From Acidobacteriota bacterium (GTDB lineage Bacteria; Acidobacteriota; Terriglobia; Acidiferrales; UBA7541), in contig JAJPIE010000037.1 in NCBI GenBank assembly GCA_021324935.1, positions 124,001 to 188,000 of the forward strand: a stretch of 64,000 nt of DNA, read 5' to 3'. The number at the start of each line of letters is the position of its first letter. The stretch's first letter is position 1. Both the position numbers and the translations under genes were made by a program. Below are positions 152 to 16,340 of the stretch, in pieces. The notes below the pieces were generated by a model. The model was not told the origin of the DNA. It did no database searches and saw nothing but the letters and a program-made list of their open reading frames with translations.

Positions 152-261
152 GATTTGCGCGGCTTGTTCGTCCATCCGGTGCAGCCACGGTGCGCCGCCA
201 AATACCGGAGAGCTTCCCGGCCCAAACGGGGTTGGAGTCAGAAAAGTTTACTCGGAGGGGA

Positions 262-3200
262 ATGATGCAAGTCACGAGACTTCGCTGGTTCTTGGGTCTT
301 TTTGTGTTTGCGCTCGCGCTTTTGCTTGGCGCCCGGCTCTTTGCCGGCGTCACCGCCAGCATTTCCGGCACCGTCACCGACTCGAGCGGCGCTGCCATCG
401 CCGGCGCCACTGTCACGGCCACCAACGTGGATACCGGCGTGGCCGTCACGCAAACCACTAACGCGCAGGGTTATTATTCGTTTCAATCACTCCCTCTTGG
501 CAAATACAACATCGATATTCAGCAGACAGGCTTCAAATCCTACCGCCAGACGGGCCTCGTTCTCGACGTCAACGCTGCCCTCGTCGTCGATGTCACCCTC
601 CAGGTCGGCCAGAAGACCGAGAAGGTCGAAGTCGAAAGTTCTGCGCTTCACGTTGAGACCTCCAACACCCAAATGGGTGAGGTCATCGAAGGCAAGGAAA
701 TGACCGATGTCCCGTTGCTCACGCGAAGCTACACGGACCTCCTCGCCCTTCAGCCCGGCGTGGTGAGCACCCCTTCGGGCATGACCGGTGCGTATGCCGG
801 CAGCTTCATCTCCGCGGGTTTCGCGTTGCCGCAAATTTCCGGCGACCAGAATTCGGGCGCGCAATCCGTCAACGGCATGCGCGAAAGTTCGAACGGTTTC
901 ATCCTCAACGGCATCCTTACCCAGGAAACGGGCTATTCCGGAGCGGGTGCCATTCCCAACCTTGATTCCATCGCGGAATTCCGCATCCTCACCAACAACT
1001 TCGACGCGGAATACGGCAATTATAGCGGCGGCCAGATCAACGTGGTCACCAAGTCCGGCACCAACGATTTTCATGGGAACGTCTTCGAATTTTTCCGCAA
1101 CACCGATCTGAATACCGCCAACTTCTTCGCCGCGGGCCAGCGGGGCGCTTATCACCAAAATCAGTTCGGAGGAACTTTTGGCGGTCCGATTAAAAAGGAC
1201 AAGCTCTTCTTCTTTGCCGATTATCAAGGCAACCGCAAGGTCGTCGGCGAAACGCAGGTCATTTCCAATGCGCCTTCGGCTGGACTGCTCACTAGTGGAG
1301 ATCTTTCTTCCGTCGCCAGCGCCCTCACGGGTACGGTCCAAGGCACGGCTTGGGCGCAGCAATTGACGAATCAATTGGCCAGCCAGTTGAACGGCCAGAC
1401 TGTCACGGCCGGTGAACCTTACTACACTCCGGGATGCACTGCGGATGGCGCCGGTGGCACCACGAAGTGCGTCTTCCCAACCCTTTCATTGAATCCTTCG
1501 AATTTCAATTCCATCTCCGCCAAGCTGCTCCCCTATATTCTTCCTGCGAACAACGCTAACGGCACTTTTTCCACCAGTTCGCAGAAGTTGGATTTGAATG
1601 ACAACAAGTTCAGCGGGCGAGTGGACGACAACACCAGCTTTGCCGGCCTTCTGACTGCTTACTACTATTTCGACAAGTTCGACCGCGTCGATCCCTACTG
1701 GGCTTCCAATGCGCCGCTTTACCCGGGATTCAGTGTCGACAGCAACGGCCATACGCACACCATCGACCTTGGCAGCACCAAAACGTTCTCTTCCGCTGCT
1801 GTGAATGAATTCCGGCTCGGCTACTTCCGCCTGGACACCAAGTTCAATCAGCCGCTTGGTGGAAAGGGAACCACGCTTTCCAGCCTCGGTTTTCAACCGG
1901 GTGGCTCGCCAAATGCTCCCGGCGTTACCATTGGTGCGCCAAGTGTCCAAGGCATCCCGGAGATCGACTTCAACAACTGGGTGATCGGTGTTCCCAGCCG
2001 CCCCAATCGCATTACCGAGAACATCTACCAGTCCCTTGACAACTACTCGCGCGTATTCGGCACCCATACCTTGAAAATCGGCGCGCAATACCACTTCAAT
2101 CAGCTCGAAGAGAACCTCTTCAACGTCGCCAACGGCAACTACTTCTTTGGCAGCAACTTCAGCGGCCAGCCCAGCGAAACCGGCAGCGACATCGTCGACT
2201 TCCTCCTTGGCGCGCCCACTCAGTTCGTGCAAGGCCAGTCTTATCCTTCCTATGGCCGCAGCTTCTACTTCGGCATGTTTGGCCAGGATAGCTGGCGCAT
2301 CAAATCCAACCTGACCTTCAATTACGGCCTGCGCTACGACGTCAGCTCGCCCTGGCACGAAAAGTACAACGAAATCCAGACCCTCGTTCCCGGACTGCAA
2401 TCGAAAGTCTTCCCGGGGTCTCCGCTGGGCTGGGTGTTCCCGGGTGATCCGGGCATCCCGCGCGGCCTCGCCCCCACACGCTGGAACAACTTCGCACCGC
2501 GCCTCGGCCTGGCCTACTCTTTCGGCCAACACGACGGCACGCTTGGCAAAATCCTCGGCAAACCGGGCACGACCAGTATCCGCGCCGGCTGGGGCATGTA
2601 CTACACGACTTTCGAAGGCGCTACAGACTTCAACGAAATCGGCGACGCTCCCTTCGGAAACTACACGGGCCAGAACCAACCCTCCTTTGCCGCGCCTTTC
2701 ATTCAGCGTGCATCCGGCTCGCAAGTCTCCAATCCTTTCCCGGTAGCCCCGCCACCGAAGAATTTCTCCATCTCCAATCCGGCTACTGGATATCCGTACG
2801 ACAATCTTGTCGATTTCTACACTGCCTTCGGCACGATCGGGAGTTCACCCGCGTTCGATACCCACAACCGCTTGCCGTACGCCGAAACTTATGAACTTTC
2901 GGTTCAGCGCCAATTCACCTCTTCCGACCTGCTCACCGTGAGTTATGTGGGAACGCAGGGCCATCGACTGCTCTCCTCGATCTCCGCGAATCCGGGCATT
3001 CCCTCGCTTTGCTTGCAATTGCAGTCGGTCGGCTGCGGGCCGGGCGGCGAAAACAACGTCTACACTCTGCCGGATGGCACCCAGGTTGCCGGCACGCGCG
3101 GGCCCTTCAGCACCTACTATCGTAACAATCCCGTGTTCATCAACGGCACCGCCATCGTGCCCTTCGGCAACGATTCCTACTTCAGCACCATTGGCAATTC

Positions 3201-3933
3201 CAGCTACCATTCCTTGCAGGTCAACTGGCGCCATACCGCGCGCTCTCTCCAGGTCCTGCTCGGTTACACGTTTAGCAAAGCGATCGATGACTCCTCCGGC
3301 TACGGCGAGCAGATTAATCCGTATAATCCGCGCTTGAGCCGCGGCCTCGCTGCCTTCGACTCCACCAACAATTTTGTGGTCAGCTACAACTACCGGCTGC
3401 CCCTCGACAAACTCGATGCCTGGAAGCCTCTCACGCATGGCTGGGAAATCAGTGGCATCACCACCTTCTCGACAGGTCTTCCCATCACGATCGTGGAGAC
3501 CGACGATCGCGCCTTGACCGGCACCGGCTTCGGCGGGCCAATTGTTCTTCCCGTCGATACCCCGAACTACAACGGACAATCGCTGGGGATCACTGATCCA
3601 CGGAATAATCCGAACCACTACTTTTTCAATATTTCCGACTTCAGCCAAAGTGCCATCGGTATGCAAGGTACCGCGAACCGGCGCTTCTTCCATGGCCCCG
3701 GCATCAACAACTGGAACATGGCCATCAAGAAAATCACTCCGATCCGCGAAGGAATTTCGCTCGAATTCCGCGCGGAACTCTTCAACGTCTGGAATCACGC
3801 TCAATTCATTAATCCCAGTGGTCTGGTGCCGGGTCCCTTGGGAACTCCCAGTGCGCCCTTGACCAACTTCGGCGAGATCACTGCCGCTCGCGATCCGCGG
3901 CTCGCGCAGCTCGGCCTGAAGCTCAACTTCTAG
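262..3933 (+). CDS. TonB-dependent outer membrane receptor with carboxypeptidase-regulatory-like domain (Oar type)
   Basis: A protein of about 1223 residues that should sit in the outer membrane and import a large or scarce substrate using TonB energy. The start is placed at ATG 262 (ATG 265 is equally possible) because GGAGGGG lies just upstream; the longer GTG frame from 190 has no ribosome site. A signal peptide (residues 1-28) is followed by a CarboxypepD_reg beta-sandwich (about 30-115, with GTVTDSSGA), a plug domain (about 135-270, with the VNGMRESSNGF and NVVTKSGTN stretches) and a long beta-barrel ending in LGLKLNF with a terminal Phe, usual for outer membrane proteins. This large form is greatly expanded in acidobacteria and often accompanies sugar-use loci. 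Its place directly upstream of the inositol-type genes on the same strand suggests, by inference only, that it takes up the substrate of that pathway. Confidence 0.9.
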   Translation: MMQVTRLRWFLGLFVFALALLLGARLFAGVTASISGTVTDSSGAAIAGATVTATNVDTGVAVTQTTNAQGYYSFQSLPLGKYNIDIQQTGFKSYRQTGLVLDVNAALVVDVTLQVGQKTEKVEVESSALHVETSNTQMGEVIEGKEMTDVPLLTRSYTDLLALQPGVVSTPSGMTGAYAGSFISAGFALPQISGDQNSGAQSVNGMRESSNGFILNGILTQETGYSGAGAIPNLDSIAEFRILTNNFDAEYGNYSGGQINVVTKSGTNDFHGNVFEFFRNTDLNTANFFAAGQRGAYHQNQFGGTFGGPIKKDKLFFFADYQGNRKVVGETQVISNAPSAGLLTSGDLSSVASALTGTVQGTAWAQQLTNQLASQLNGQTVTAGEPYYTPGCTADGAGGTTKCVFPTLSLNPSNFNSISAKLLPYILPANNANGTFSTSSQKLDLNDNKFSGRVDDNTSFAGLLTAYYYFDKFDRVDPYWASNAPLYPGFSVDSNGHTHTIDLGSTKTFSSAAVNEFRLGYFRLDTKFNQPLGGKGTTLSSLGFQPGGSPNAPGVTIGAPSVQGIPEIDFNNWVIGVPSRPNRITENIYQSLDNYSRVFGTHTLKIGAQYHFNQLEENLFNVANGNYFFGSNFSGQPSETGSDIVDFLLGAPTQFVQGQSYPSYGRSFYFGMFGQDSWRIKSNLTFNYGLRYDVSSPWHEKYNEIQTLVPGLQSKVFPGSPLGWVFPGDPGIPRGLAPTRWNNFAPRLGLAYSFGQHDGTLGKILGKPGTTSIRAGWGMYYTTFEGATDFNEIGDAPFGNYTGQNQPSFAAPFIQRASGSQVSNPFPVAPPPKNFSISNPATGYPYDNLVDFYTAFGTIGSSPAFDTHNRLPYAETYELSVQRQFTSSDLLTVSYVGTQGHRLLSSISANPGIPSLCLQLQSVGCGPGGENNVYTLPDGTQVAGTRGPFSTYYRNNPVFINGTAIVPFGNDSYFSTIGNSSYHSLQVNWRHTARSLQVLLGYTFSKAIDDSSGYGEQINPYNPRLSRGLAAFDSTNNFVVSYNYRLPLDKLDAWKPLTHGWEISGITTFSTGLPITIVETDDRALTGTGFGGPIVLPVDTPNYNGQSLGITDPRNNPNHYFFNISDFSQSAIGMQGTANRRFFHGPGINNWNMAIKKITPIREGISLEFRAELFNVWNHAQFINPSGLVPGPLGTPSAPLTNFGEITAARDPRLAQLGLKLNF

Positions 3934-4064: not shown

Positions 4065-5213
4065 ATGTCGGCCCAAGGCGTACTGGCGGCAACACTCGTT
4101 GAACCCGGAAAATACGAATTGCGGGAGTACCCGTTGCCGGAGCCCGCACCCGGCTGCGTTCTCGTTAAAATGGAAATGTCCGGCATCTGCGGCACGGACA
4201 AGCACACCTTTCAGGGCTACGTCACCCAATACGGCGACCGCAAGCTCGAATTTCCCATCATTCAAGGCCACGAAAATGTCGGCACCGTCGCCGCCATCGG
4301 CGGCAACGGGCGCTACACCGATTTCGAAGGCATCCCGCTCCGGATCGGCGACCGCGTCGTCGTGGGCGCCAACGTTTCCTGCGGCCAGTGCTACTACTGC
4401 CGCCATGATTTCCCTTACTACTGCTGTGAGAACACCACCGACTACGGCAATAACCTCAGCGCGAAAAATCCTCCGCACCTTTTCGGCGGCTGGTCGCAAT
4501 ACATTTACATTGTTCCCGGCAGTTTCCTCGTGAAAGTTCCCGACGATCTGCCCTCCGAAGTCGCCGTGCTCACCGAAATCTTCGCCGTGTCTGTCGGCCT
4601 CGACCGCGCCAAGCAAATCTCCGCTTTTCCAAGTGAATCGTTCCGCTTCGATGACACCGTTGTCGTCCTCGGCGCGGGACCGCTCGGCATGTGCTTCCTG
4701 ATGAAAGCGCGCATGCTCGGCGCCGGCACCATCATCGCGGTCGATCTCTCGGACTACCGCCTCGATTTTGCCAAGCGCCTCGGCGCCGATCACGTTATCC
4801 ATGCCGGAAAAATGTCCAAAGCCGAACGCCTGCAATTCGTGAAGCACGTTACCAGCGGGCGCGGCGCGGACATGGTCGTGGAATGCGCCGGCGTTCCGCA
4901 AGCTGTGCCCGAGGCGCTCGAAATGCTGCGCGTCAGCGGATTGCTCGTCGAGGCCGGCAACTTTTCCGATCTCGGCGAAATTTCCCTTAGCCCGCATCGT
5001 CATCTGTGCGCCAAAAATGCGCGCATCCTTGCGGTGGGCGGCGAAGAGCCCGCGGCTTATGGCCCGAGCATGCGCCAGATGGCCCGCTATATGAAACATT
5101 ATCCACTGCGCGAATTTGTCACGCATCGGTATGGCTTGCGCGACGTCAATGCCGCCATGCAAAAGGCCATCGAGCCCGATTCCATGAAAGTGGTCTTCGA
5201 GCCCTGGCGCTGA
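4065..5213 (+). CDS. Zinc-dependent medium-chain dehydrogenase (polyol/cyclitol type)
   Basis: A 382-residue medium-chain dehydrogenase that should oxidise a secondary alcohol to a ketone with NAD(P). Cys42 (in SGICGTDKH), His69 and Glu70 (in GHENVG) form the catalytic zinc site; Cys106, Cys109, Cys112 and Cys120 or Cys121 form the structural zinc lobe; VVLGAGPLGM around residues 205-214 is the Rossmann nucleotide site. Length is normal for the family. Relatives include sorbitol and threonine dehydrogenases and the dehydrogenases of deoxystreptamine synthesis. It heads a co-directional run of dehydratase, dehydrogenases and an inosose-type aminotransferase, so a cyclitol or amino-cyclitol substrate is inferred. 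The exact substrate cannot be read from the sequence. Confidence 0.85.
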   Translation: MSAQGVLAATLVEPGKYELREYPLPEPAPGCVLVKMEMSGICGTDKHTFQGYVTQYGDRKLEFPIIQGHENVGTVAAIGGNGRYTDFEGIPLRIGDRVVVGANVSCGQCYYCRHDFPYYCCENTTDYGNNLSAKNPPHLFGGWSQYIYIVPGSFLVKVPDDLPSEVAVLTEIFAVSVGLDRAKQISAFPSESFRFDDTVVVLGAGPLGMCFLMKARMLGAGTIIAVDLSDYRLDFAKRLGADHVIHAGKMSKAERLQFVKHVTSGRGADMVVECAGVPQAVPEALEMLRVSGLLVEAGNFSDLGEISLSPHRHLCAKNARILAVGGEEPAAYGPSMRQMARYMKHYPLREFVTHRYGLRDVNAAMQKAIEPDSMKVVFEPWR

Positions 5214-5260: not shown

Positions 5261-6199
5261 ATGAGCAGACTGAAAGAACGGTTCTTATTTGCTTGCGCAC
5301 CCGACAGTTGGGGTGTGTTGGACTACCCAGGGCCGTCGTGGGAACAATCCTACGAAAAGATGCTCGACGAAATGGTCGATGCCGGATACACCGGCACGGA
5401 ACTCGGACCCTACGGCTTTTTCCCCACCGATCCGGCCGTGCTTAAGCCGCAGCTCGAGAAGCGCAAGCTGAAGCTCCTTGGCTCGTTTGTTCCCGTCAAA
5501 ATGACCGATCCCGCCGCTGGCAAAGCCGTCATCGAACGCATTCGCAAGGTCGGCAATCTGCTCGCCACACTGAAGGCGCCGTTCCTCGTTATGGCCGACG
5601 ACCAATCGGCGGAGCGCAACGCCTTCTCCGGCCGCGTCTATGAACACGGCTGCCCGGCGCTTACCGCAGCGCAGTGGAAGCACGTTGGCAACATCGTTGC
5701 CGACGCCGAAAAGGTCGCGCAGGAATTCGGCCTCGACCTCGTTTTCCATCCTCACGTTGCCACCTATGTCGAAACCCCGGAAGAGTGCGAGCGCTTCTAC
5801 GATGTCTGCTCGCACACCAGGATCGGTCTTTGCCTCGACACCGGTCACTGCGTCTATGGTCACGGCGACTCCGTGAAGGAAGCGGAAAAGTACAAGGACA
5901 AGCTGCGCCTTGTGCACATTAAGGACTGCAACAACGCCGTCCTCGCCGACGCGCGCAAGAATCACTGGACTTTCGAAGAAGCCATCGAACACAAAGTGTT
6001 CACCGTGATCGGCAAGGGCGACATCGACTTCCCGGCCTTCTTTCGCACGTTGATCAAGAATGGCTATTCCGGCTGGTCTGTGATCGAACAGGACGTCAAA
6101 TTCGGCCATACCGAAATTCCGCCGAAAGACAGCGTTGCCGCCAGCTTGCGTTATCTCGAAGGCGTGATGAACCAGCTCAGCGCGGCTGCGAAAGCTTAG
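5261..6199 (+). CDS. IolE/MocC-like inosose dehydratase, sugar phosphate isomerase/epimerase family
   Basis: A TIM-barrel protein of 312 residues of the AP-endonuclease-2-like fold. The start is ATG 5261, preceded by GGAG at 5251; the longer open frame running back into the dehydrogenase gene is an artefact. The N-terminal ACAPDSWGV stretch, FHPHVATYVETPEE, GLCLDTGHC, VHIKDCN and WSVIEQD are the barrel-end motifs that hold the divalent metal. IolE dehydrates scyllo-inosose to the trihydroxycyclohexanedione that IolD then hydrolyses, and MocC of rhizopine catabolism belongs to the same subgroup. Because iolD and iolB lie 7-10 kb away in the same island, an inosose dehydratase role is the best inference; an epimerase of a related keto-cyclitol is the alternative. 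Confidence 0.8.
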   Translation: MSRLKERFLFACAPDSWGVLDYPGPSWEQSYEKMLDEMVDAGYTGTELGPYGFFPTDPAVLKPQLEKRKLKLLGSFVPVKMTDPAAGKAVIERIRKVGNLLATLKAPFLVMADDQSAERNAFSGRVYEHGCPALTAAQWKHVGNIVADAEKVAQEFGLDLVFHPHVATYVETPEECERFYDVCSHTRIGLCLDTGHCVYGHGDSVKEAEKYKDKLRLVHIKDCNNAVLADARKNHWTFEEAIEHKVFTVIGKGDIDFPAFFRTLIKNGYSGWSVIEQDVKFGHTEIPPKDSVAASLRYLEGVMNQLSAAAKA

Positions 6200-6242: not shown

Positions 6243-7271
6243 ATGAAGAAAATCGGTATCGGTGTTTTGGGCGTCGGCGAGATGGGCAAGCGCCACGCGG
6301 AAAATCTTCGCCGCCTAACCCCCGGCGCGGAACTTCTCGCCGTCGCGGACGTTGCCGCCGCTCGCGCCAGGCAAGTTGCCGACGAACTCGAAATCCCGAA
6401 ATCGTACGGCAGCCTCGAGGCCTTGCTGGAAAACAAGGACATCCGGGCCGTCTTGATCGCCACGCCCGACAAATTTCACGCGCAATCCATCATTCAGGCC
6501 GCGAAAACCGGCAAAGACATTCTGTGCGAAAAGCCCATCGCCCTGACGATGACCGACGCCTACGCCGCTCTCGATGCCGTCGCCAAAGCCGGCGTCCGCC
6601 TCCAGATCGGCTTCATGCGCCGCTACGATCCCGCTTACGCGGCCGCCATGAAGCGCATCGAAGCCGGCGAAATCGGCACGCCGCTCATCTTCAAATCCGT
6701 CGGTCGCGACAAGGACGAGCCGCCGATGGCCGCTTATCAATCCGGCGTCAATGGAATGATCCTTTACAACAACACGATTCACGATTTCGACCTCGCCCGG
6801 TGGCTCATGCGGGATGAAATCGCCGAGGTCCACACCTATGGTACCGTGGCCATTCGCCCTGAAGTCGCGCAATACGGCGATGTCGTCGCCAGCTCCGTCA
6901 ACTTGAAATACCACAAGGGCGGTATCGGCAACATCGAATCCTACGTCCAGGCTGTTTACGCCTACGATGTGCGCACGGAAATTCTAGGCTCCAAAGGCGC
7001 TGTGTTCGTTGGAAGCATCGAAAAAGTTCCGGCCGTTTTCCTTGGCGCCAACGGTGGCTCGCAATCCCTTGCCGATCATTTCCTCTCGCGCTTCGCCGAT
7101 GCCTATCTCGCCGAAGTGCAGGATTTTGTTGCCGCCCTGCTCCACGATAAGCCCGTCCGCGTCACCGGCGAAGATGGGCTTAAGGCCTTGGCCACCGCCG
7201 TCGCCGCCGAAAATTCGCTCCAGCAAGCCAAGCCGGTGAAGGTTACGCTCGAACGTTCCGTGGCGACCTGA
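6243..7271 (+). CDS. Gfo/Idh/MocA oxidoreductase, inositol 2-dehydrogenase-like
   Basis: A 342-residue NAD(P)-dependent dehydrogenase. The Rossmann motif GVLGVGEMG is at residues 7-15, the EKP motif puts the catalytic lysine at Lys97, and IHDFDLARWL gives the catalytic His180. Length, Lys97 and the GFMRRYDPAYAA stretch match bacterial inositol dehydrogenases (IolG), which oxidise myo-inositol to scyllo-inosose. One oddity is that the residue four before the histidine, normally the catalytic Asp in IolG, is Asn176 here. The gene follows the IolE-like gene by 43 bases in the same direction, the usual pathway pairing. Altered substrate use, such as an amino- or keto-inositol, is possible. Confidence 0.82.
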   Translation: MKKIGIGVLGVGEMGKRHAENLRRLTPGAELLAVADVAAARARQVADELEIPKSYGSLEALLENKDIRAVLIATPDKFHAQSIIQAAKTGKDILCEKPIALTMTDAYAALDAVAKAGVRLQIGFMRRYDPAYAAAMKRIEAGEIGTPLIFKSVGRDKDEPPMAAYQSGVNGMILYNNTIHDFDLARWLMRDEIAEVHTYGTVAIRPEVAQYGDVVASSVNLKYHKGGIGNIESYVQAVYAYDVRTEILGSKGAVFVGSIEKVPAVFLGANGGSQSLADHFLSRFADAYLAEVQDFVAALLHDKPVRVTGEDGLKALATAVAAENSLQQAKPVKVTLERSVAT

Positions 7272-7327: not shown

Positions 7328-8425
7328 ATGACCCAGGCAACTGCTGCGGGATACAACAGTCCGCTCCACCAGATGACCCAGACGACGCCCACGTGTCTCT
7401 GGAACGACTCTGCCTCCGTCACCGAGCTGACCTACTCCATCGAACACGGCGCCGTCGGCGCGACTTGCAATCCCGTGATCGTCCTTGGCGTCCTGAAAAA
7501 AGAGATTGCCAATTGGAAAGGCCGCATGGAAGCCCTGCTGAGGGAATTTCCCACGGCCACGGAGGACGAGGTCGCGTGGAAAATTGTGCGCGAGATCTCC
7601 ATCCGGGCCGCGGGGCTTCTCGAACCGATCTATGAAGCCCAGCGTGGCAGGAACGGGCGCCTCTCGATTCAAACCGATCCGCGCCTCTATCGCAGCTCTA
7701 AGGCGATCGTCGAACAGGCCGAAGAGTTCAGCCGCCTCGCGCCAAATATGATCGTGAAGATTCCTGTCACTTCCGCCGGCATTCCCGCGATCGAAGAAGC
7801 CACCTATCGCGGCGTCAGCATAAACGCCACCGTTTCCTTCACTTTGCCGCAATGCGTCGCCGTCGCCGAAGCCGTCGAGCGCGGCCTGAAGCGCCGTGAA
7901 AAAGAAGGCAAGGACATTTCCACCATGGGCCCGGTCTGCACCATCATGGTCGGCCGCCTCGACGACTGGCTCAAGGTGCTCATCGAGAAGGACAACATCG
8001 CCATCGATCCAGGCTATCTCGAATGGGCCGGCGTCGCCGTCTTCAAGAAAACCTACAAGCTCTTTCGGGAACGCGGCTACCGCATACGGCTGCTTTCCGC
8101 CGCCTTCCGCAATCACATGCATTGGAGCGAGATGATCGGCGGCGACGTGGTGATCTCGCCGCCCTACTCGTGGCAGGTGCGCTTCAACCAAAGCGATATA
8201 GCGATAACTCCGCGCATCGATAAACCTGTCCCATCGCCAATGGTCGAAGAATTGAGCGCGAAGTTCCCGGATTTCCGGCGTGCCTACAACGAGGGCGGTC
8301 TGTCCATTCCCGAATTTGATTCGTTTGGCCCCACGCGCCGAACCTTGCGGCAATTCATCGCCGCATGTCACGACCTCGATGCCGTCGTGCGAGACGTCCT
8401 GCTGCCGAATCCCGATGTTTCTTAG
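7328..8425 (+). CDS. Transaldolase-family protein in the inositol island
   Basis: A 365-residue class I aldolase-fold protein with a strong ribosome site, AAAGGAGG at 7315-7322. Asp27 (LWNDSAS), Asn48 (ATCNPV) and the Schiff-base Lys144 (VKIPVT) correspond to the Asp, Asn and Lys of E. coli transaldolase, and the later SINATVSF and GPVCTIMVGRLDDW strands fit the barrel. Transaldolases move dihydroxyacetone units between sugar phosphates, and relatives act as simple aldolases. The classical inositol route needs an aldolase (IolJ) after kinase IolC, and neither is in the window, so this protein could supply the carbon-carbon cleavage or transfer step. That is inference; an ordinary pentose-phosphate role is the alternative. 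Confidence 0.85.
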   Translation: MTQATAAGYNSPLHQMTQTTPTCLWNDSASVTELTYSIEHGAVGATCNPVIVLGVLKKEIANWKGRMEALLREFPTATEDEVAWKIVREISIRAAGLLEPIYEAQRGRNGRLSIQTDPRLYRSSKAIVEQAEEFSRLAPNMIVKIPVTSAGIPAIEEATYRGVSINATVSFTLPQCVAVAEAVERGLKRREKEGKDISTMGPVCTIMVGRLDDWLKVLIEKDNIAIDPGYLEWAGVAVFKKTYKLFRERGYRIRLLSAAFRNHMHWSEMIGGDVVISPPYSWQVRFNQSDIAITPRIDKPVPSPMVEELSAKFPDFRRAYNEGGLSIPEFDSFGPTRRTLRQFIAACHDLDAVVRDVLLPNPDVS

Positions 8426-8498: not shown

Positions 8499-9797
8499 GT
8501 GGGAAAACTTGCAATCACTGGCGGGAAACCGCTTCGCACTAAACCGTTTACGCAATGGCCCATCGCCACCAAAGCGGAAGCGGCTGCCTTGAAAGACGTC
8601 CTGCAAAGCACGCGCTGGGGTGGCCAGCCCTTCCCCGGCAAGCACGCCAGGGAATTCGCCGATAAATTCGCCAGGCTCCACACGGCCAAATATGGCCAGT
8701 GCGTGAACACCGGCACCGTCGCTATCCAGGCCGCGCTCAAAGCCATCGGCATCCAGCCCGGCGACGAAGTCATCGTTCCCGCTTATACCTGGGAAGGCAC
8801 CGTTGGGCCTGTGCTCCTTGTAAACGCCATCCCCGTATTCGTCGACGTCGATCCGGATACCTATTGCCTCGACGCCCGCCTCATCGAGAAAGCCATCACA
8901 CCTAAAACCAGGGCTATTCTCCCCGTGCATCTCGGCATGCGCTTTGCCGACATGGATGAAATTCTTCGCATCGCCGCCAAGCACAACCTGAAAGTCGTCG
9001 AAGATTGCGCCCACGCTCACGGCGGCAAGTGGAAAGGGAAGGGTGCGGGCTCGATGGGCGATCTCGGCGCGTTCAGCTTCCAGACCAGCAAGCTCATCAC
9101 CTCCGGCGAAGGCGGCGCTGTTATCACCAACAACCTGGAGTACCTGGAGCTCGTGCAGAGTTACATCAACGCCGGCCGAGCCAGCCTCACCGACCAGTTC
9201 AAGAAGCGCATTATCGGTTTCAATTATCGCCTCGGCGAATTTCAGGCCGCCGTGCTGGGTGCCCAGCTCAAGCGCCTGCCAAAAGAAGGCGCCATCCGCC
9301 AGAAAAATATGAAGCGCCTCGAGTCCAAACTCAAGAACGCGGAAGCGATCGGCCTTCTCAAGCCCGATCCGCGCATCACCAGTCTCGCGCCATACGGCTA
9401 TGTCATGAAATATTTCGCCGACAAAGCGAAGGACGTCCCGCGCGCCGCCTTCGTCGCCGCTCTCCAGCTCGAAGGTGTCCACTGCGATGGGCTCTTTTAT
9501 GAACCGGTCTACAAAAGTTCGCTCTTTCCCGTCGATCCCACTGATTTCCCCGCATTAAGCTGGGGCCGCGAAAAGCCTCTCGATTTGCGCTCCATGTATT
9601 CGTGCCCACAGTCGGAAAAAGCCGCGTATCACGAAGCCGTCTGGTTCCCGCACCAGCACTTCCTCGGCCCAAATAAAGATGTCGACGACATTGTGGATGC
9701 CATTCACAAAGTCCTCGAAAACATCGAAGAGTTGCGTGGCTTGGATCACAAGGCGATTCGCAATCAGCGCCTGGGCCGCGCCGACCGCGAAAGCTGA
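8499..9797 (+). CDS. DegT/DnrJ/EryC1 aminotransferase, L-glutamine:scyllo-inosose type
   Basis: A PLP-dependent aminotransferase of 432 residues that starts at GTG 8499 behind GGAGGG (8485-8490). The PLP lysine is Lys198 in FSFQTSKLITSGEGG, and Asp169 in VVEDCAH binds the pyridine nitrogen. This lysine loop and the overall length resemble the inosose aminotransferases of streptomycin and deoxystreptamine pathways (StsC and BtrR/NeoB type), which exchange a ring keto group for an amino group. The gene sits among inositol-catabolism genes and no antibiotic genes are near, so it more probably removes the amino group of an inosamine to give an inosose for the dehydratase. A biosynthetic direction cannot be excluded. 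Confidence 0.85.
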   Translation: MGKLAITGGKPLRTKPFTQWPIATKAEAAALKDVLQSTRWGGQPFPGKHAREFADKFARLHTAKYGQCVNTGTVAIQAALKAIGIQPGDEVIVPAYTWEGTVGPVLLVNAIPVFVDVDPDTYCLDARLIEKAITPKTRAILPVHLGMRFADMDEILRIAAKHNLKVVEDCAHAHGGKWKGKGAGSMGDLGAFSFQTSKLITSGEGGAVITNNLEYLELVQSYINAGRASLTDQFKKRIIGFNYRLGEFQAAVLGAQLKRLPKEGAIRQKNMKRLESKLKNAEAIGLLKPDPRITSLAPYGYVMKYFADKAKDVPRAAFVAALQLEGVHCDGLFYEPVYKSSLFPVDPTDFPALSWGREKPLDLRSMYSCPQSEKAAYHEAVWFPHQHFLGPNKDVDDIVDAIHKVLENIEELRGLDHKAIRNQRLGRADRES

Positions 9798-9805
9798 TCT
9801 TCGTC

Positions 9806-10855
9806 ATGAAAGCGGAGCAAAAAGTCGGTTTTGCGGTCGTCGGGCTTGGCGCCATCGCGCAGACCTCCGTTCTGCCGGCTTTCCGCCACGCCAAACGTGC
9901 AAAACTTGTCGCCCTCGTCAGTCGCGACAAACGCAAAGCAGAAAAGCTCGCCAGAAAATTCAAAGCTTCTGCCGCCTATGCATCCGACGAATTCACCGCC
10001 TGCCTCGCCAATCCGGAGGTCAACGCCGTATATCTCGCCACCCCGCAAAGCGAACATCTCAGCGCCACGATCGCTGCCGCTCAGGCAGGGAAGCACGTCC
10101 TCAGTGAAAAGCCTCTCGCCCTTAATTCCGCGCAGTCCGCGCAAATGGTGAAAATTTGCGAAGAAAATGGCGTGCAATTGATGACCGCCTACCGGAAATA
10201 CTTCGAGCCCAGCGCCCTGTTCCTGAAAAAACTCATCCAGTCCGGGCAGCTTGGCAAGCTGGACATGATCCACACCGCCTTCAGCGAACTCCACGTACCC
10301 GGCCGCTCGCTCTCCTGGCTTCTCGACTCCAAAATCGCAGGCGGTGGCCCGCTCATGGACCTCGGCGTCTATTGCGTCAACACCAGCCGCTGGCTCGTGA
10401 ACGAAGACCCCGTGGAAATCACTGCACAGGCATGGAAAAAAGATGCCGCACGCTATCACGATGTTGAGGAAGGTATCGGTTTCCGCATGCATTTCTCCAG
10501 CGGCTTGCTCGTGCAGGGCAGTGCCACTTATAGTTCCGTGCTTTCCTCCTTCGTCTTCGTGCAAGGCAACAAGGGCTGGGCTTGCCTTGCTCCCGCATTT
10601 CCCTTCGACGAACAGCGCCGCCTCACGGGAAAAATCAATGGCAAGTCCTTCGAACGGAAATTCCCTGTCGTGGATGAATTTGCTCCCGAACTGGATGCTT
10701 TTGCCGCGGCCATCCGCCGGAATAAGACGGTCGAGCCCGACGGCCGCCAGGGCCATCGCGATATGCTCATTTTGGAGGCAATGTACGAGTCCGCGAGGAA
10801 AAACGCCCCGGTCGCCGTAAGATATGGAATCGCGCAGGTAGCCGCATCCGAATAA
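9806..10855 (+). CDS. Second Gfo/Idh/MocA oxidoreductase (GFOR-like active site)
   Basis: A 349-residue NAD(P)-binding dehydrogenase starting eight bases after the aminotransferase gene. The N-terminal GFAVVGLGAIAQ Rossmann motif, an EKPLALN motif with the catalytic lysine and a GGGPLMDLGVYCVN stretch are visible. The Asp and the Tyr in place of His in the last motif resemble glucose-fructose oxidoreductase and 1,5-anhydrofructose reductase groups rather than IolG. It is therefore probably not redundant with the IolG-like gene upstream and may handle a pyranose or a different cyclitol position. Close spacing with the aminotransferase and the LacI gene supports one transcription unit. Confidence 0.82.
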   Translation: MKAEQKVGFAVVGLGAIAQTSVLPAFRHAKRAKLVALVSRDKRKAEKLARKFKASAAYASDEFTACLANPEVNAVYLATPQSEHLSATIAAAQAGKHVLSEKPLALNSAQSAQMVKICEENGVQLMTAYRKYFEPSALFLKKLIQSGQLGKLDMIHTAFSELHVPGRSLSWLLDSKIAGGGPLMDLGVYCVNTSRWLVNEDPVEITAQAWKKDAARYHDVEEGIGFRMHFSSGLLVQGSATYSSVLSSFVFVQGNKGWACLAPAFPFDEQRRLTGKINGKSFERKFPVVDEFAPELDAFAAAIRRNKTVEPDGRQGHRDMLILEAMYESARKNAPVAVRYGIAQVAASE

Positions 10856-10858
10856 CCG

Positions 10859-11938
10859 ATGAGTCCTTCACCCAAAAACGGCCGCACAAAAATGAAAAAA
10901 GCCGCCAGCATCTACGATGTCGCGCGCGAATCCGGCGTCTCCGTGTTCACTGTTTCCGCCGTCGTCAACAACAAGAGCCACGTCGGCAAGGCGCTTCGCG
11001 AAAAAGTCGAAGCGGCCATCCGCAAACTCAATTATCGCCCGAATCTGATTGCCCGCAGCCTCGCCAAGCAACGAACGCACACCATTGGGATGATCGTGCC
11101 GGACATTGGCAACCCGTTCTTCCCCAGCGTCGTTCGCGGTACGGAAGACGCCGCGCAAAGGCACGGCTACAACCTGCTCCTTTGCAACTCCGACGACTCT
11201 CTGGAAAAGGAAGAAAAAGCCATCGAACTGCTTCTTTCCAAGCGCGTCGATGGCATCCTCCTCACCAAAGCCGCCGAGGACTTTCACCCGTCAATCCGGC
11301 AAATGATCAAGCAGGTCAACATCCCCTTTGTGCTCGTGATGCGTACCTATCCGAAGCTCACAAGGGATGCCGTAATCACCGACGATTACCATGGAGCCTA
11401 CGAAGCCGTATCCCACCTCGCGCGCGCCGGGCGCAAGCGCATCGCGCTGATCAGCGGTCCGTTGAAAGTCAGCAACGCAAAGGAACGCTGGCAGGGTTTT
11501 GTCGATGCGTTAAAAGCTGAGGGCCTGCCTTTCGAGCAGGATTTGGTGATCGAAGGCGACTATCGCATGGAATCGGGCTATCGTGCCGGCCACTCCCTTT
11601 TCTCGCGACGCCCGGATGGTATCTACGTCGCGAACTATCTGATGACCGTCGGCCTGCTGAAAGCCGCCGAAGAAATGGGCCTGCGTTGCCCGGAAGATTT
11701 TGGTTTGGTGAGCTTCGACGATTACCCCTGGCTTGGCATTTTCCGTCCGCGCCTGACCACCGTCGAATTACCCAAGCATCAGTTGGGCAGCGAAGCCGCC
11801 GAACTTTTGATCCGCCGCATCACCGGAGACACCAGCAAGCCCGTCCTGATTAAACTCCAGCCCGAACTTCGCATCCGCGAATCCTGCGGCTTCGCCTTGC
11901 ACGTCTCCGCTGGACCCGACGAAAAGCCGCTGGTGTAG
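10859..11938 (+). CDS. LacI-family transcriptional regulator of the island
   Basis: A 359-residue regulator starting three bases after the preceding stop. An alternative ATG at 10892 would begin directly at the conserved MKKAASIYDVA; neither has a clear ribosome site. A LacI helix-turn-helix with YDVARESGVSVFTVSAVVN is followed by the hinge helix and a periplasmic-binding-protein-like effector domain that starts with HTIGMIVPDIGNPFF. Such proteins repress catabolic genes until a pathway sugar or intermediate binds. Palindromes with the central CG expected for LacI proteins lie upstream of iolB (16393-16406) and iolD (15381-15390), making this the obvious candidate regulator of both arms of the island. 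Confidence 0.9.
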   Translation: MSPSPKNGRTKMKKAASIYDVARESGVSVFTVSAVVNNKSHVGKALREKVEAAIRKLNYRPNLIARSLAKQRTHTIGMIVPDIGNPFFPSVVRGTEDAAQRHGYNLLLCNSDDSLEKEEKAIELLLSKRVDGILLTKAAEDFHPSIRQMIKQVNIPFVLVMRTYPKLTRDAVITDDYHGAYEAVSHLARAGRKRIALISGPLKVSNAKERWQGFVDALKAEGLPFEQDLVIEGDYRMESGYRAGHSLFSRRPDGIYVANYLMTVGLLKAAEEMGLRCPEDFGLVSFDDYPWLGIFRPRLTTVELPKHQLGSEAAELLIRRITGDTSKPVLIKLQPELRIRESCGFALHVSAGPDEKPLV

Positions 11939-11993: not shown

Positions 11994-13370
11994 TTATGTC
12001 TCGCTGAAATCAAACAACTTCGGACGCAACGTAAATCCCTTCGTCTTATAAGCCGCGTAGACCATGCCCGCCACCAGCCAAATCACTCCTGCCCATTTTG
12101 TCCAATTCTGCAAACTAAACAGCAGTCCGAAACAAAACACAAATCCAAATCCCGGCACAATCGCATCCACAAAGAAATTCCGCTTCCCTCTCGCCTCCGG
12201 CCCGAATGAGAAATGCAGCAGCGCCACCAGGTTCACGCCCATGAACGCGATCAGCGCGCCAAACGTCACCATCTCTGCCGCCAGTTCCCACGGAATCGTC
12301 ACCACGCCGATATAGGCCAGTACGCCCACGATCCACACGTTGTAAATGGGATTGCCTTTTTTCGCGCTGATATGTCCGAAGATTTTCTTGGGTAACACGT
12401 CGTCGCGCCCCATGCTGTAAAGCAATCGCGCCGCGCCCACGTGCCCGGCCAGTCCGCACGCGATGCTCGAAACCAGCAGCATGATGCCGTACGCCGTGAA
12501 CAGCCATGGGCCGCTTGCCGCTCGCGCCACGTCCATGAACGCCGTTTCCGGATTCGCAAGCGTTGTGTAGTCCGGCCAAACGCGCTGCGCCATGTACACC
12601 TGAAACCCGCTGAACAGTCCCGTGAAGATACAAACCAGCACGGACGCCAGCAGAACGTTGCGCCGTGGATTCTTCACCTCCTCCGCCAGGATCGAGACAC
12701 CGTCAAAGCCAATGAACACCAGGGCCGCCAGCGAGGTTCCCGACGCCACCGCCCGCAATTGGAATGTGTGCGGATCATAAATCGGCTGCAGCGAAACCAG
12801 TCCCGAAATGTGGTGGTGCAAGATCACGAACCGAAACGCTTCCACCAGAAAGATTCCCGTCACCAGGCACATGAAGGACAGCAGCACCTCGTTCGTCCTC
12901 GCCGTGAACTTGATTCCTTGCACGGTCATGTAGGTGATTAGCCCTACGGCCAGGGCCGCCAGAACCGCAAAAGGAACCTTCGGAACCATTCGCTGAATGG
13001 CCAGCACCGCGTAGAGCGCATTCTGGATCGGCTGGAACAGGTACTCCAGAAACATCGCCCAACCCACAACGAATCCAACGTGCGGGTTCATTCCTTTACT
13101 GATGTAGGTATAAACGGAACCGCTGGACGGATACACTGTCGCCATGCGGCCAAAGCTGACGGCCGTCACGGACATCGCCACCATCGCGAGCAACATCGTC
13201 GCGGCAGCGTGGCCGTGCGAAAGCACCTGCGCCTCGCCAAACAGCGGCACCGCCGCGATCGGCGAGGTCAGAATCACGCCGTAATAAATCAGATCCCAAA
13301 GTCCCAGAACGCGCTTCAGGTGCGGCGCAGTCGCGGTTCCCGCCTGCAGTGACTCTGTCGTTGTGGCCAA
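11994..13370 (-). CDS. APC-superfamily amino acid/amine permease
   Basis: An inner membrane transporter of 458 residues with about 12 hydrophobic helices. The first helix carries the LWDLIYYGVILTSPIAA signature of the amino acid-polyamine-organocation family, and FIGFDGVSILAEEVKNPRR is the typical loop after helix 6. It is the last gene of the - strand run iolB-iolD-permease (67-base gap to iolD) and is convergent with the LacI gene. Inositol itself is normally carried by MFS or ABC systems, so an amine or amino-acid type carrier here fits a nitrogen-bearing substrate such as an inosamine. That link is inferred from position only. Confidence 0.85.
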   Translation of the reverse strand: MATTTESLQAGTATAPHLKRVLGLWDLIYYGVILTSPIAAVPLFGEAQVLSHGHAAATMLLAMVAMSVTAVSFGRMATVYPSSGSVYTYISKGMNPHVGFVVGWAMFLEYLFQPIQNALYAVLAIQRMVPKVPFAVLAALAVGLITYMTVQGIKFTARTNEVLLSFMCLVTGIFLVEAFRFVILHHHISGLVSLQPIYDPHTFQLRAVASGTSLAALVFIGFDGVSILAEEVKNPRRNVLLASVLVCIFTGLFSGFQVYMAQRVWPDYTTLANPETAFMDVARAASGPWLFTAYGIMLLVSSIACGLAGHVGAARLLYSMGRDDVLPKKIFGHISAKKGNPIYNVWIVGVLAYIGVVTIPWELAAEMVTFGALIAFMGVNLVALLHFSFGPEARGKRNFFVDAIVPGFGFVFCFGLLFSLQNWTKWAGVIWLVAGMVYAAYKTKGFTLRPKLFDFSET

Positions 13371-13437: not shown

Positions 13438-15288
13438 TTACAGGAAATATTTCTCTTTTGCGCGCGCCTGTTCGTACTTCTTGCGAGCTTCCCGCACGTT
13501 CTCCCGCTCGGAAACCTCTGCGATCGGCACATCCCACCACGATTCGTAGCCCGGCACGCGCTCCTCGTATGAGGTTTCCACCACCACCACGGAGGTCCGG
13601 TCGTGTTCCCGCTGTGCCGCCAGCGCGTTGCGAAACTCTTCGTGCGATTTAGCGCGAATCGCGCACGCGCCAAGGCTCGCCGCGTTCGCCGCAAAATCCA
13701 CCGGCAGCGGCTCACCGTCGTATTTTTCTCCCCGCCGGAAACGATAGTTCGTTCCCATTCCTTCATTGCCCGAGCCGCGGCTCAGCCCGCCAATGCTCGA
13801 AAATCCGTGGTTATCCAGTAAAATGATGTTCAGCTTGTAGCCTTCTTGCAGCGAAGTCACAATCTCCTGCGCCATCATTAAATAAGAGCCGTCGCCTACC
13901 ATCACGTACACTTCGCGATCCGGGTGCGCCATTTTCACGCCGAGCCCGCCGGCGATCTCATATCCCATGCAGGAGTAGCCGTATTCCATGTGATATCCTC
14001 CCGGTTCCTTCGTGCGCCACAATTTGTGCAAATCACCCGGCAAACTTCCCGCCGCGTTCAACAAAACTGCCGAGGGCTCCAGAAACGCTTGCAGTTCGCC
14101 AATCACTTCTCCCTGCGAAAGCGGCTGCTTCCGCACCGCATATATCCGGTCGACTTCCTTCTCCCACTCCGCGCGAAACTTCGCGATCCGCGCGGCGTAG
14201 GAAGCTTCCACTCGAAACCCGGCGACGGCGGTTTGCAATTCCTCCAGAGTCGCGCGCGCGTCACCGGTCAAGGGCAATGCATGGTGTTTGAACGCGTCAA
14301 ATTCCGCTACGTTGATATTGATGAAGCGCACTCCCGGATTCTGAAACGCCGTTTTCGAAGCGGTCGTGAAATCCGAATAGCGCGTTCCTACGCCGATCAC
14401 CAAGTCCGCTTCGCGCGCCAGAATGTTCGCGCCCGGAGTTCCGGTTACTCCGATTGCGCCAACTTCCTGCGGATGATCGAATCGCAGCGAGCCCTTTCCG
14501 GCCTGCGTTTCGCACACCGGAATCCCCGTGGCTTCCGCAAAGCTTGCCAGCGCTCGCGTCGCTTCCGAATAGAGCACGCCGCCTCCCGCTACGAGGAGTG
14601 GATGCCTCGCCTGGCGAATCCAGTTGGCCGCCTTCTCCAATTGCTGCGCATCGCAGCGCGTGCGGGGAATTGTCCAAATTCGTTTTCGGAAAAACTCCTC
14701 GGGAAAATCGAATGCTTCCGCTTGCACGTCCTGCGGCAGGGCCAGCGTCACTGCGCCCGTATCCGCGGGCGAGGTGAGCACGCGCATGGCCTCTGGCAGG
14801 GAAGTCAGCACTTGCTCCGGCCGTTGAATCCGGTCCCAATAGCGCGATACGGGCTTGAAGCAATCGTTGACGGAGACGTCCTGCGTGGTGGCGGACTCCA
14901 GTTGTTGCAACACCGGCGCCACATTCCGTCGTGCGAAAATATCGCCGGGAAGCAGCAGCACCGGGATGCGGTTAATCGTCGCGGCCGCCGCTCCGGTCAC
15001 CATGTTCGTGGCGCCCGGTCCAATCGAAGTCGTGCACGCCAGCGTGCGCATGCGAAACGCTGACTTTGCATACGCCGCAGCCGTGTGCACCATCGCTTGT
15101 TCATTCCGGCACAAGTAATATCGAATCCCCGAATCCTGCTCCAGCGCCTGCCCGATTCCACACACATTCCCATGGCCGAAAATTCCAAAGCACCCCTCGA
15201 TGAGCCGGTTCTCCTTGCCGTCCCGGCTGGAATATTGCGCCTTCAGGAAAGCGATGATGGCTTGCGCGACGGTCAAGCGGCGGGTCAT
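13438..15288 (-). CDS. iolD: 3D-(3,5/4)-trihydroxycyclohexane-1,2-dione acylhydrolase
   Basis: A thiamine-diphosphate enzyme of 616 residues that opens the cyclitol ring, turning trihydroxycyclohexanedione into 5-deoxy-glucuronate. The start is set at ATG 15288 because AGGAG lies nine bases upstream and TRRLTVAQAIIAFL aligns with the start of known IolD; an ATG at 15330 would add 14 residues. The IFGHGNVCGIGQALEQ stretch near the N-terminus is characteristic, and VGDGSYLMMAQEIVTS with LLDNHGFSS is the thiamine-diphosphate/Mg binding motif. Together with iolB upstream this is the most specific marker of inositol catabolism in the window. A palindrome at 15381-15390 lies in its leader. Confidence 0.93.
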   Translation of the reverse strand: MTRRLTVAQAIIAFLKAQYSSRDGKENRLIEGCFGIFGHGNVCGIGQALEQDSGIRYYLCRNEQAMVHTAAAYAKSAFRMRTLACTTSIGPGATNMVTGAAAATINRIPVLLLPGDIFARRNVAPVLQQLESATTQDVSVNDCFKPVSRYWDRIQRPEQVLTSLPEAMRVLTSPADTGAVTLALPQDVQAEAFDFPEEFFRKRIWTIPRTRCDAQQLEKAANWIRQARHPLLVAGGGVLYSEATRALASFAEATGIPVCETQAGKGSLRFDHPQEVGAIGVTGTPGANILAREADLVIGVGTRYSDFTTASKTAFQNPGVRFININVAEFDAFKHHALPLTGDARATLEELQTAVAGFRVEASYAARIAKFRAEWEKEVDRIYAVRKQPLSQGEVIGELQAFLEPSAVLLNAAGSLPGDLHKLWRTKEPGGYHMEYGYSCMGYEIAGGLGVKMAHPDREVYVMVGDGSYLMMAQEIVTSLQEGYKLNIILLDNHGFSSIGGLSRGSGNEGMGTNYRFRRGEKYDGEPLPVDFAANAASLGACAIRAKSHEEFRNALAAQREHDRTSVVVVETSYEERVPGYESWWDVPIAEVSERENVREARKKYEQARAKEKYFL

Positions 15289-15380
15289 GGCGAGGTTCTC
15301 CTCGAGGTGTGTTTTGTGATTTGCGGACAAGCATGCGGCAAAACCGGGGAGGGAGGCGAGACCAAATTCGGGGCTCGGTC

Positions 15381-15470: not shown

Positions 15471-16340
15471 TCAGCGCACCATCGGCAATCGCGGATCGAT
15501 CTCTTTCCAGGTGGATTTCAGCCAGACGTGATTCGGATCTTCGGTAACGGCCAGCGTGCGCGAGGTCCCGGCCAGAAAATTCAGATAATAGGTGTTATAG
15601 CCGGGCCCGGCCACCACGGGGTGGTAACCCGAGCGAACCAGCACCGCGTCGCCGTCCTGCGCGCGCACCGTGACATCGCGCGACATATCCGGCGAGTACA
15701 ATCGCTGTAACGCGAATCCTTCCTTGGGCCGCTCGATGCGGTAGTAATAAATCTCGTCCAGGTCCACTTCCGCCGGTGGGTTGTGCACGTCATGCTTGTG
15801 TGGAGGAAAACTCGACCAGTTTCCTCCCGGGGTGTACACCTCAATCACCACCAACTTGTCCGCCGGAAAATCCGGCCGGAGGATATCGACAATTTGCCGG
15901 GAAGCGTTCTCCCCGCCACGGAGGCTGGGAAATACCTCTTTTGGCGTGATCAACTTAGGTTGCAACTTGGCCTCGGAGGGCACTCGGCACTCGGCAATTT
16001 CGCAAACCGTCTCCGCCTTGAATGTGATCGAATGTCCCGCCGGGAGATACACGGAGTACGGCAAGCCGTCAAAAACATTCTTCCGCTGCCCGATTGAGTG
16101 CGCGCCATCGCCCCAGTCTGCGGTACACCGCCCGCCTAGCAGGACGAACGCGGCTTCTTCCGCTTGCGTCCGGGCGGAATACGTCTCGCCCGGATTCAGC
16201 CGCCGTGCGGACATGCTCATCCATTCCCACTGCACGCTCTCGCGCGAGAAATTCAGCAGCTCGCCGGATTGTCCTTCTGGCAGCGCGTGTGAATGAACCA
16301 CATCAGGAGCAGCAGCCATGTAGCACCCCAACTCGTCCAT
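15471..16340 (-). CDS. iolB: 5-deoxy-glucuronate isomerase
   Basis: A double-cupin enzyme of 289 residues that isomerises 5-deoxy-glucuronate to 5-dehydro-2-deoxy-gluconate, the step after IolD. A start at ATG 16319 is nearly as likely. The second cupin carries SSFPPHKHDVHN and LDEIYYY, giving the two His and Glu metal ligands, and RSGYHPVVAGPGYNTYYLNFLAG provides the last histidine and the family-specific tail. Length is close to the usual 270 residues. The gene is first in the - strand run iolB-iolD-permease and has a LacI-type palindrome 53-66 bases upstream. Confidence 0.93.
   Translation of the reverse strand: MDELGCYMAAAPDVVHSHALPEGQSGELLNFSRESVQWEWMSMSARRLNPGETYSARTQAEEAAFVLLGGRCTADWGDGAHSIGQRKNVFDGLPYSVYLPAGHSITFKAETVCEIAECRVPSEAKLQPKLITPKEVFPSLRGGENASRQIVDILRPDFPADKLVVIEVYTPGGNWSSFPPHKHDVHNPPAEVDLDEIYYYRIERPKEGFALQRLYSPDMSRDVTVRAQDGDAVLVRSGYHPVVAGPGYNTYYLNFLAGTSRTLAVTEDPNHVWLKSTWKEIDPRLPMVR

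Follow-up and report, generated by a model that had tools for sequence, protein, structure and literature searches.

In the classical lower route of inositol breakdown, the step after IolB and before IolA is carried out by two unrelated proteins acting on a 6-phosphate, the kinase IolC and an aldolase (IolJ, a DUF2090 protein or a Cgl0159-like aldolase). The available passages of one study report, for 26 inositol-using genomes, IolC-DUF2090 in 16 and IolJ in 2 (PMC9007349), which by subtraction leaves 8 of the 26. A survey that calls inositol clusters by iolB, iolC, iolD and iolE, asking for three of the four, makes no mention of Acidobacteria in the accessible portions of its text (PMC9430895). 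A transaldolase-fold enzyme is found within another catabolic cluster, that of the sulfo-TAL pathway, where SftT (BmSF-TAL), as described in the accessible part of PMC11659671, uses a ketose that carries an acid group where the C6 phosphate would stand and transfers its glycerone to glyceraldehyde-3-phosphate, yielding fructose-6-phosphate and a C3 aldehyde acid. In fructose-6-phosphate aldolase (FSA), the catalytic water is held by Gln59, Thr109 and Tyr131 (PMC13259622, available passages). Literature searches in one open-access collection, which leaves aside subscription journals and preprints, listed no paper that by its title, the start of its abstract or the available passages ties a transaldolase to inositol breakdown or to its intermediate 5-dehydro-2-deoxy-D-gluconate (DKG); the direct cutting of this six-carbon intermediate, which a transaldolase-like enzyme described here probably performs, is not known as a step of the inositol pathway.

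The window, a stretch of 64,000 nucleotides from an Acidobacteriota bacterium, carries an iol island (Table 1) in which, as the original prediction had it, a gene for a transaldolase-fold protein is embedded among the pathway genes. This gene belongs to a same-strand run, preceded by those of the zinc dehydrogenase and the IolE-like and IolG-like proteins and followed by those of the DegT aminotransferase, the second Gfo/Idh dehydrogenase and the LacI regulator. Beyond the regulator, the other strand encodes the permease, IolD and IolB. The last two scored over their family cut-offs, and IolG and IolE were the best family matches below theirs. The LacI-family protein is the probable regulator of the island, and the permease is a candidate inner-membrane transporter. 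The aminotransferase and second dehydrogenase genes keep the same order after the transaldolase in one of the relative loci (L031; 82% and 65% identity), and the pair possibly represents an amino-inositol branch. Directly upstream of the island lies the gene of a large outer-membrane protein. Large proteins clustering together in one family (F7) were found in 7 of 38 transaldolase loci; these proteins and that of the window are candidate outer-membrane receptors for inositol or an inositol-containing compound.

Table 1. Features of the iol island and of its upstream flank, in window coordinates
Feature	Coordinates	Strand	Evidence
Outer-membrane beta-barrel protein, 1247 aa, with carboxypeptidase-regulatory domain	190..3933	+	OMP_b-brl_4, 585.5 bits
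Zinc-dependent medium-chain dehydrogenase, IolM/Tdh-like	4065..5213	+	below equivalog cut-offs
IolE-like inosose dehydratase	5261..6199	+	197.7 bits vs cut-off 290; best family match, below cut-off
IolG-like inositol 2-dehydrogenase	6243..7271	+	333.7 bits vs cut-off 355; best family match, below cut-off
Transaldolase-fold protein, proposed DKG-cleaving enzyme (DKG:glyceraldehyde-3-phosphate glycerone transferase or DKG aldolase)	7328..8425	+	PF00923, conservation, model
DegT/DnrJ/EryC1/StrS aminotransferase family protein	8499..9797	+	profile match
Second Gfo/Idh/MocA dehydrogenase	9806..10855	+	profile match
LacI-family regulator	10859..11938	+	profile match
APC-type permease	11994..13370	-	profile match
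IolD, trihydroxycyclohexane-dione acylhydrolase	13438..15330	-	935.3 bits vs cut-off 715
IolB, 5-deoxy-glucuronate isomerase, makes DKG	15471..16340	-	291 bits vs cut-off 205

The transaldolase-fold protein has 365 residues (start ATG, stop TAG), and AAAGGAGG stands immediately upstream of its start codon. It matched the PF00923 TAL_FSA profile (122.7 bits; cut-off 27) and none of the NCBIfam transaldolase equivalogs at cut-off (the top one, PRK03343, gave 117.2 against 367 bits), which makes it a divergent member of PF00923. The NCBIfam profile of FSA, TIGR00875, likewise fell short of its cut-off (36.9 against 245.95 bits). Structural modelling confirmed the transaldolase barrel: the AlphaFold2 model (mean pLDDT 93.4, pTM 0.91) found its best solved match in the Neisseria transaldolase 3clm (Z 39.2 over 323 residues, rmsd 2.1), and the Corynebacterium transaldolase 3r5e gave a Z of 37.6. 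The protein shares with these 350-aa transaldolases the fold and the active-site Asp/Asn/Lys, but only 22 to 24% identity. The sulfofructose transaldolase 8bc2 matched with a Z of 22.2 over 199 residues, with 22% identity between SftT and the window protein over the 199 aligned positions. SftT is also shorter (about 220 aa), decameric and equipped with the catalytic Glu. FSA (220 aa) aligned with a Z of about 20 to 21 over 194 to 197 residues.

The original prediction credited the protein with a full Asp27/Asn48/Lys144 set. All three residues, the Schiff-base Lys144 and its partners, are in place and invariant across 32 aligned relatives, but the fourth catalytic residue differs. The Glu of classical transaldolases (EC 2.2.1.2; TalB Glu96) is absent, and the HMMER alignment places Gln115 at this position, again invariant in the 32 rows. 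Thr46, Asn166, Thr168, Thr205, Arg210 and Arg261 are equally invariant. Thr205, Arg210 and Arg261 correspond to the phosphate-binding Ser176, Arg181 and Arg228 of TalB. Met207 occupies the position of TalB Phe178, being neither Phe nor Tyr, so that of the Gln59/Tyr131 pair around the catalytic water of FSA, only the Gln is retained, Met standing in for the Tyr.

Lower-pathway genes were searched for across the assembly of the window's genome (4.50 Mb, 95 contigs, 91.4% complete). Neither IolC nor DUF2090 nor a class II aldolase was matched on the contig of the window, in agreement with the claim that the island lacks IolC and IolJ, and on the other contigs no match exceeded its cut-off: the best IolC match (TIGR04382) reached 122.6 of 300 bits, the best IolC-type DUF2090 match 21.3 of 27 bits, and the class II aldolase profile PF01116 gave zero matches. 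The genome does encode IolD, IolB and MMSDH/IolA (561 bits; cut-off 448.5). The MMSDH gene lies elsewhere (contig C20; L091, 6880-11300), in a same-strand run with glucokinase-like and glucose-6-phosphate dehydrogenase-like genes, both named by eye. The best IolC match is a PfkB kinase on contig C39 that was rejected as IolC; it is grouped with a gene for a tagatose-bisphosphate aldolase and, by eye, an AgaS-like gene.

We then analyzed the distribution of the transaldolase among 247 Acidobacteriota genomes. Eight of them had a match at an E value of 1e-40, six at 58% identity or more; IolD was found in 10 at 1e-150 (9 over cut-off) and IolC in 4. Leaving out the window's own genome, IolD was present in 4 of the 5 genomes with a transaldolase of at least 58% identity and in 5 of the 241 without (Fisher test; P = 4e-6). 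Two remote matches (31 to 35% identity) were left out of this count; with them, the fraction having IolD, own genome excluded, becomes 4 of 7. Half of the 10 IolD genomes carried the transaldolase without IolC, three carried IolC without the transaldolase, and two (G024 and G050) carried neither. The IolD loci of these two showed no iolB, iolE, IolC or transaldolase and, by eye, an adjacent large membrane-transporter-like gene, perhaps reflecting another use of IolD-like proteins.

A wider scan with the transaldolase as query, keeping one genome per species, gave 36 relative loci in 35 genomes (one Spirochaete contributed a second stretch). They come from Acidobacteriota and, going by record titles, from Chloroflexi, Dormibacterota, Spirochaetaceae and Actinomycetes. 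Close relatives were 66 to 80% identical, and four partial matches 72 to 92%. IolD was over cut-off in 29 of the 35 genomes and IolC in only one (G273). Adding five genomes of the phylum sample gave 34 with both transaldolase and IolD, 33 of them without IolC over cut-off. In the phylum sample alone, IolC occurred in 0 of 5 IolD genomes with the transaldolase versus 3 of 5 without, a weak contrast (P = 0.083). Pooled with the genomes of the relatives it becomes 1 of 34 versus 3 of 5 (P = 0.004), for rows that share ancestry, were found through the transaldolase itself and are not independent draws. Six of the 35 genomes had no IolD over cut-off. Among them is a Spirochaete whose genome is a single chromosome (G257), and a 99% complete genome of the phylum sample (G061) also has the transaldolase and no IolD over cut-off, so other substrates must exist and the family is not confined to inositol. 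Stand-alone DUF2090 proteins were over cut-off in 5 of the 34 genomes with transaldolase and IolD and were considered as the missing aldolase. This candidate was set aside on the two loci read, where by eye the gene directly follows a glucose-6-phosphate isomerase-like gene (L138, 1477-2406; L140, 1546-2478); there it is possibly a glycolytic aldolase of Acidobacteriaceae.

IolD or IolB was encoded in the same stretch as the transaldolase (TAL) in 19 of the 36 relative loci. These iol clusters span Acidobacteriota and Chloroflexota and show varied gene orders: IolG-TAL (three loci), IolB or LacI divergent from TAL (three each), IolA-TAL-IolD-IolB (two), IolD-IolA-TAL and TAL-IolD (one each) and, in the phylum sample, IolE-TAL-IolD and TAL-IolB-IolD. 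MMSDH, whose substrate malonate semialdehyde has to arise when DKG is cleaved, was over cut-off in 9 of the 38 scanned loci. These neighbor counts are lower bounds, since the simple gene caller misassigned some strands and recovered the transaldolase itself in 31 of the 38 loci. The IolC queries (three in frame; a fourth, from L076, was misframed) revealed no kinase in the relative loci apart from L056.

One Acidobacteriota genome, G008, in which no close transaldolase was found, carries a cluster with the order IolB-IolD-IolC-MMSDH-like-IolE-like-Cgl0159-like aldolase (the MMSDH-like gene named by eye). Its IolD branches within those of the transaldolase genomes (support 96, in trees with SH-aLRT support only and several long-branched rows), suggesting that one IolD lineage holds either the transaldolase or the kinase and aldolase pair. 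Among the fetched loci and the window, relatives of the G008 aldolase were found only in L056 (the same locus as L130), from Actinomycetes, and on plasmid pCI3 of Clavibacter michiganensis subsp. insidiosus. It is just these two that hold IolC as well, and both have the transaldolase (57% identical in pCI3), showing that it is not always the sole lower route.

DKG is COO-CH2-CHOH-CHOH-CO-CH2OH. Derived from established structures, this ketose is 5-deoxy-D-fructuronate, with the first four carbons and the C3/C4 configuration of fructose-6-phosphate and a carboxylate at the phosphate end. A transaldolase could cut DKG in the way it handles fructose-6-phosphate, malonate semialdehyde taking the place of glyceraldehyde-3-phosphate. 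Beside the observed gene content, conservation, fold and co-occurrence, the substrate, acceptor and reaction that we infer are the following. IolG, IolE, IolD and IolB would convert inositol to DKG, whose ketone would form a Schiff base with Lys144; the C3-C4 bond would then break and malonate semialdehyde would leave, to be turned into acetyl-CoA and CO2 by MMSDH/IolA. The bound glycerone would be passed to glyceraldehyde-3-phosphate, yielding fructose-6-phosphate. This would enter glycolysis, where phosphofructokinase and aldolase would regenerate the acceptor with a gain of one dihydroxyacetone phosphate per inositol. At a cost of one ATP and a net yield of one triose phosphate per inositol, the balance would be the same as with IolC and IolJ. 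Arg210 and Arg261 may bind the acceptor phosphate and the DKG carboxylate in turn. As to whether the substrate is DKG or its 6-phosphate, both having been put forward, transaldolases take an unphosphorylated CH2OH on the glycerone side. With no room for a phosphate there and no kinase, unphosphorylated DKG would be the sensible substrate, and the 6-phosphate would not.

It is likely that the window protein cleaves DKG, by transfer or by release. That it does so by transferring the glycerone to glyceraldehyde-3-phosphate, as a non-orthologous replacement of IolC and IolJ together, is our preferred reading, to which we give close to an even chance. One protein acting on the free acid would thus do the work of two, through a chemistry resembling that of SftT, with a carboxylate in place of the sulfonate. 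The replacement of IolC and IolJ, as originally predicted, is supported in part, by the genome checks, the co-occurrence with IolD across phyla and the near-constant lack of IolC; it does not extend to the two actinobacterial loci with both systems, and the activity is a predicted one.

The main rival is an FSA-type free aldolase that would release dihydroxyacetone and malonate semialdehyde from DKG, the former then being phosphorylated by a kinase. We regard it as rather unlikely. The invariant Gln115 stands in place of the catalytic Glu, like Gln59 of FSA, and residue swaps around the catalytic water interconvert transaldolase and FSA activities, as the available passages of PMC13259622 report. 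Aldolase activity was also suggested, in the accessible part of PMC11659671, for a Faecalicatena protein whose residues Asp23, Lys140, Gln111, Asn162 and Thr201 each lie four below 27, 144, 115, 166 and 205 of the window protein; judged by these published numbers, it has the same spacing and may belong to the same subfamily. However, Met207 replaces Tyr131 of FSA, and with the Gln present and the Tyr absent the sequence is compatible with transfer as well as release. The dihydroxyacetone kinase DhaK is present in 12 of the 34 genomes with transaldolase and IolD, but absent from the other 22 and from the window's own genome, which weakly favors transfer. Glycerol kinase can also act on dihydroxyacetone.

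The remaining readings leave the lower pathway, wholly or in part, to other enzymes. The protein could serve inositol use in another way (in a side branch, on a different inositol isomer or by balancing pentose phosphates while the cell grows on inositol), with DKG left to unrecognized enzymes, such as the LacD-like aldolase of contig C39 (403 bits to tagatose-bisphosphate aldolase) and sugar kinases. That L056 and pCI3 hold the transaldolase alongside IolC and its aldolase speaks for this, as does the presence on C39 of both a PfkB kinase and an aldolase. Yet the AgaS-like gene grouped with these C39 genes suggests a role in amino-sugar use, 34 of the 35 genomes lack IolC, and two further PF00923 proteins in the window's genome (contigs C22 and C73) are candidates for ordinary transaldolase work; we judge this reading unlikely. 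Highly improbable, in our view, is a DKG-6-phosphate aldolase that replaces IolJ only, with an unrecognized kinase in place of IolC. PfkB proteins scoring 141 to 176 bits to IolC (cut-off 300) do occur in 6 of the 35 genomes, but the phosphate would fall on the glycerone side, and the IolC queries gave the result described above for the relative loci.

Related proteins were also found beside other kinds of genes. In the Spirochaetaceae locus L040 (8121-11080), from a genome without IolD, a 72% identical transaldolase has two SDR neighbors, one of the D-mannonate oxidoreductase family (359.7 bits; cut-off 281) and one glucose-dehydrogenase-like; it perhaps performs the same chemistry on fructuronate. 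On a Shinella plasmid (L155, 9806-11026), a transaldolase of 29% identity shares the Gln/Met signature; its gene is flanked by those for E1 and E2 of a complex resembling 2-oxoacid dehydrogenases, and a triose-phosphate isomerase is encoded further on. The correspondence of DKG to 5-deoxy-D-fructuronate and the Spirochaete neighborhood led us to a broader reading, which we hold tentatively, as possible but short of probable: a DKG:glyceraldehyde-3-phosphate glycerone transferase would define a lower inositol pathway that runs without a kinase in Acidobacteriota, Chloroflexota and Dormibacterota, within a Gln/Met subfamily of uronate transaldolases acting on C6-carboxylate ketoses.

The transaldolase route could account for some of the 8 inositol-using genomes left over from the counts in the available passages of PMC9007349. 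Genomes of the window type lack iolC, and genome tools keyed to iolB, iolC, iolD and iolE leave the last steps of inositol use unassigned. If true, the proposed reaction would add to the pentose-phosphate and sulfoquinovose routes a third way of reaching fructose-6-phosphate through a transaldolase, and it would be found in abundant, poorly cultured soil lineages, which live on plant inositol and phytate.
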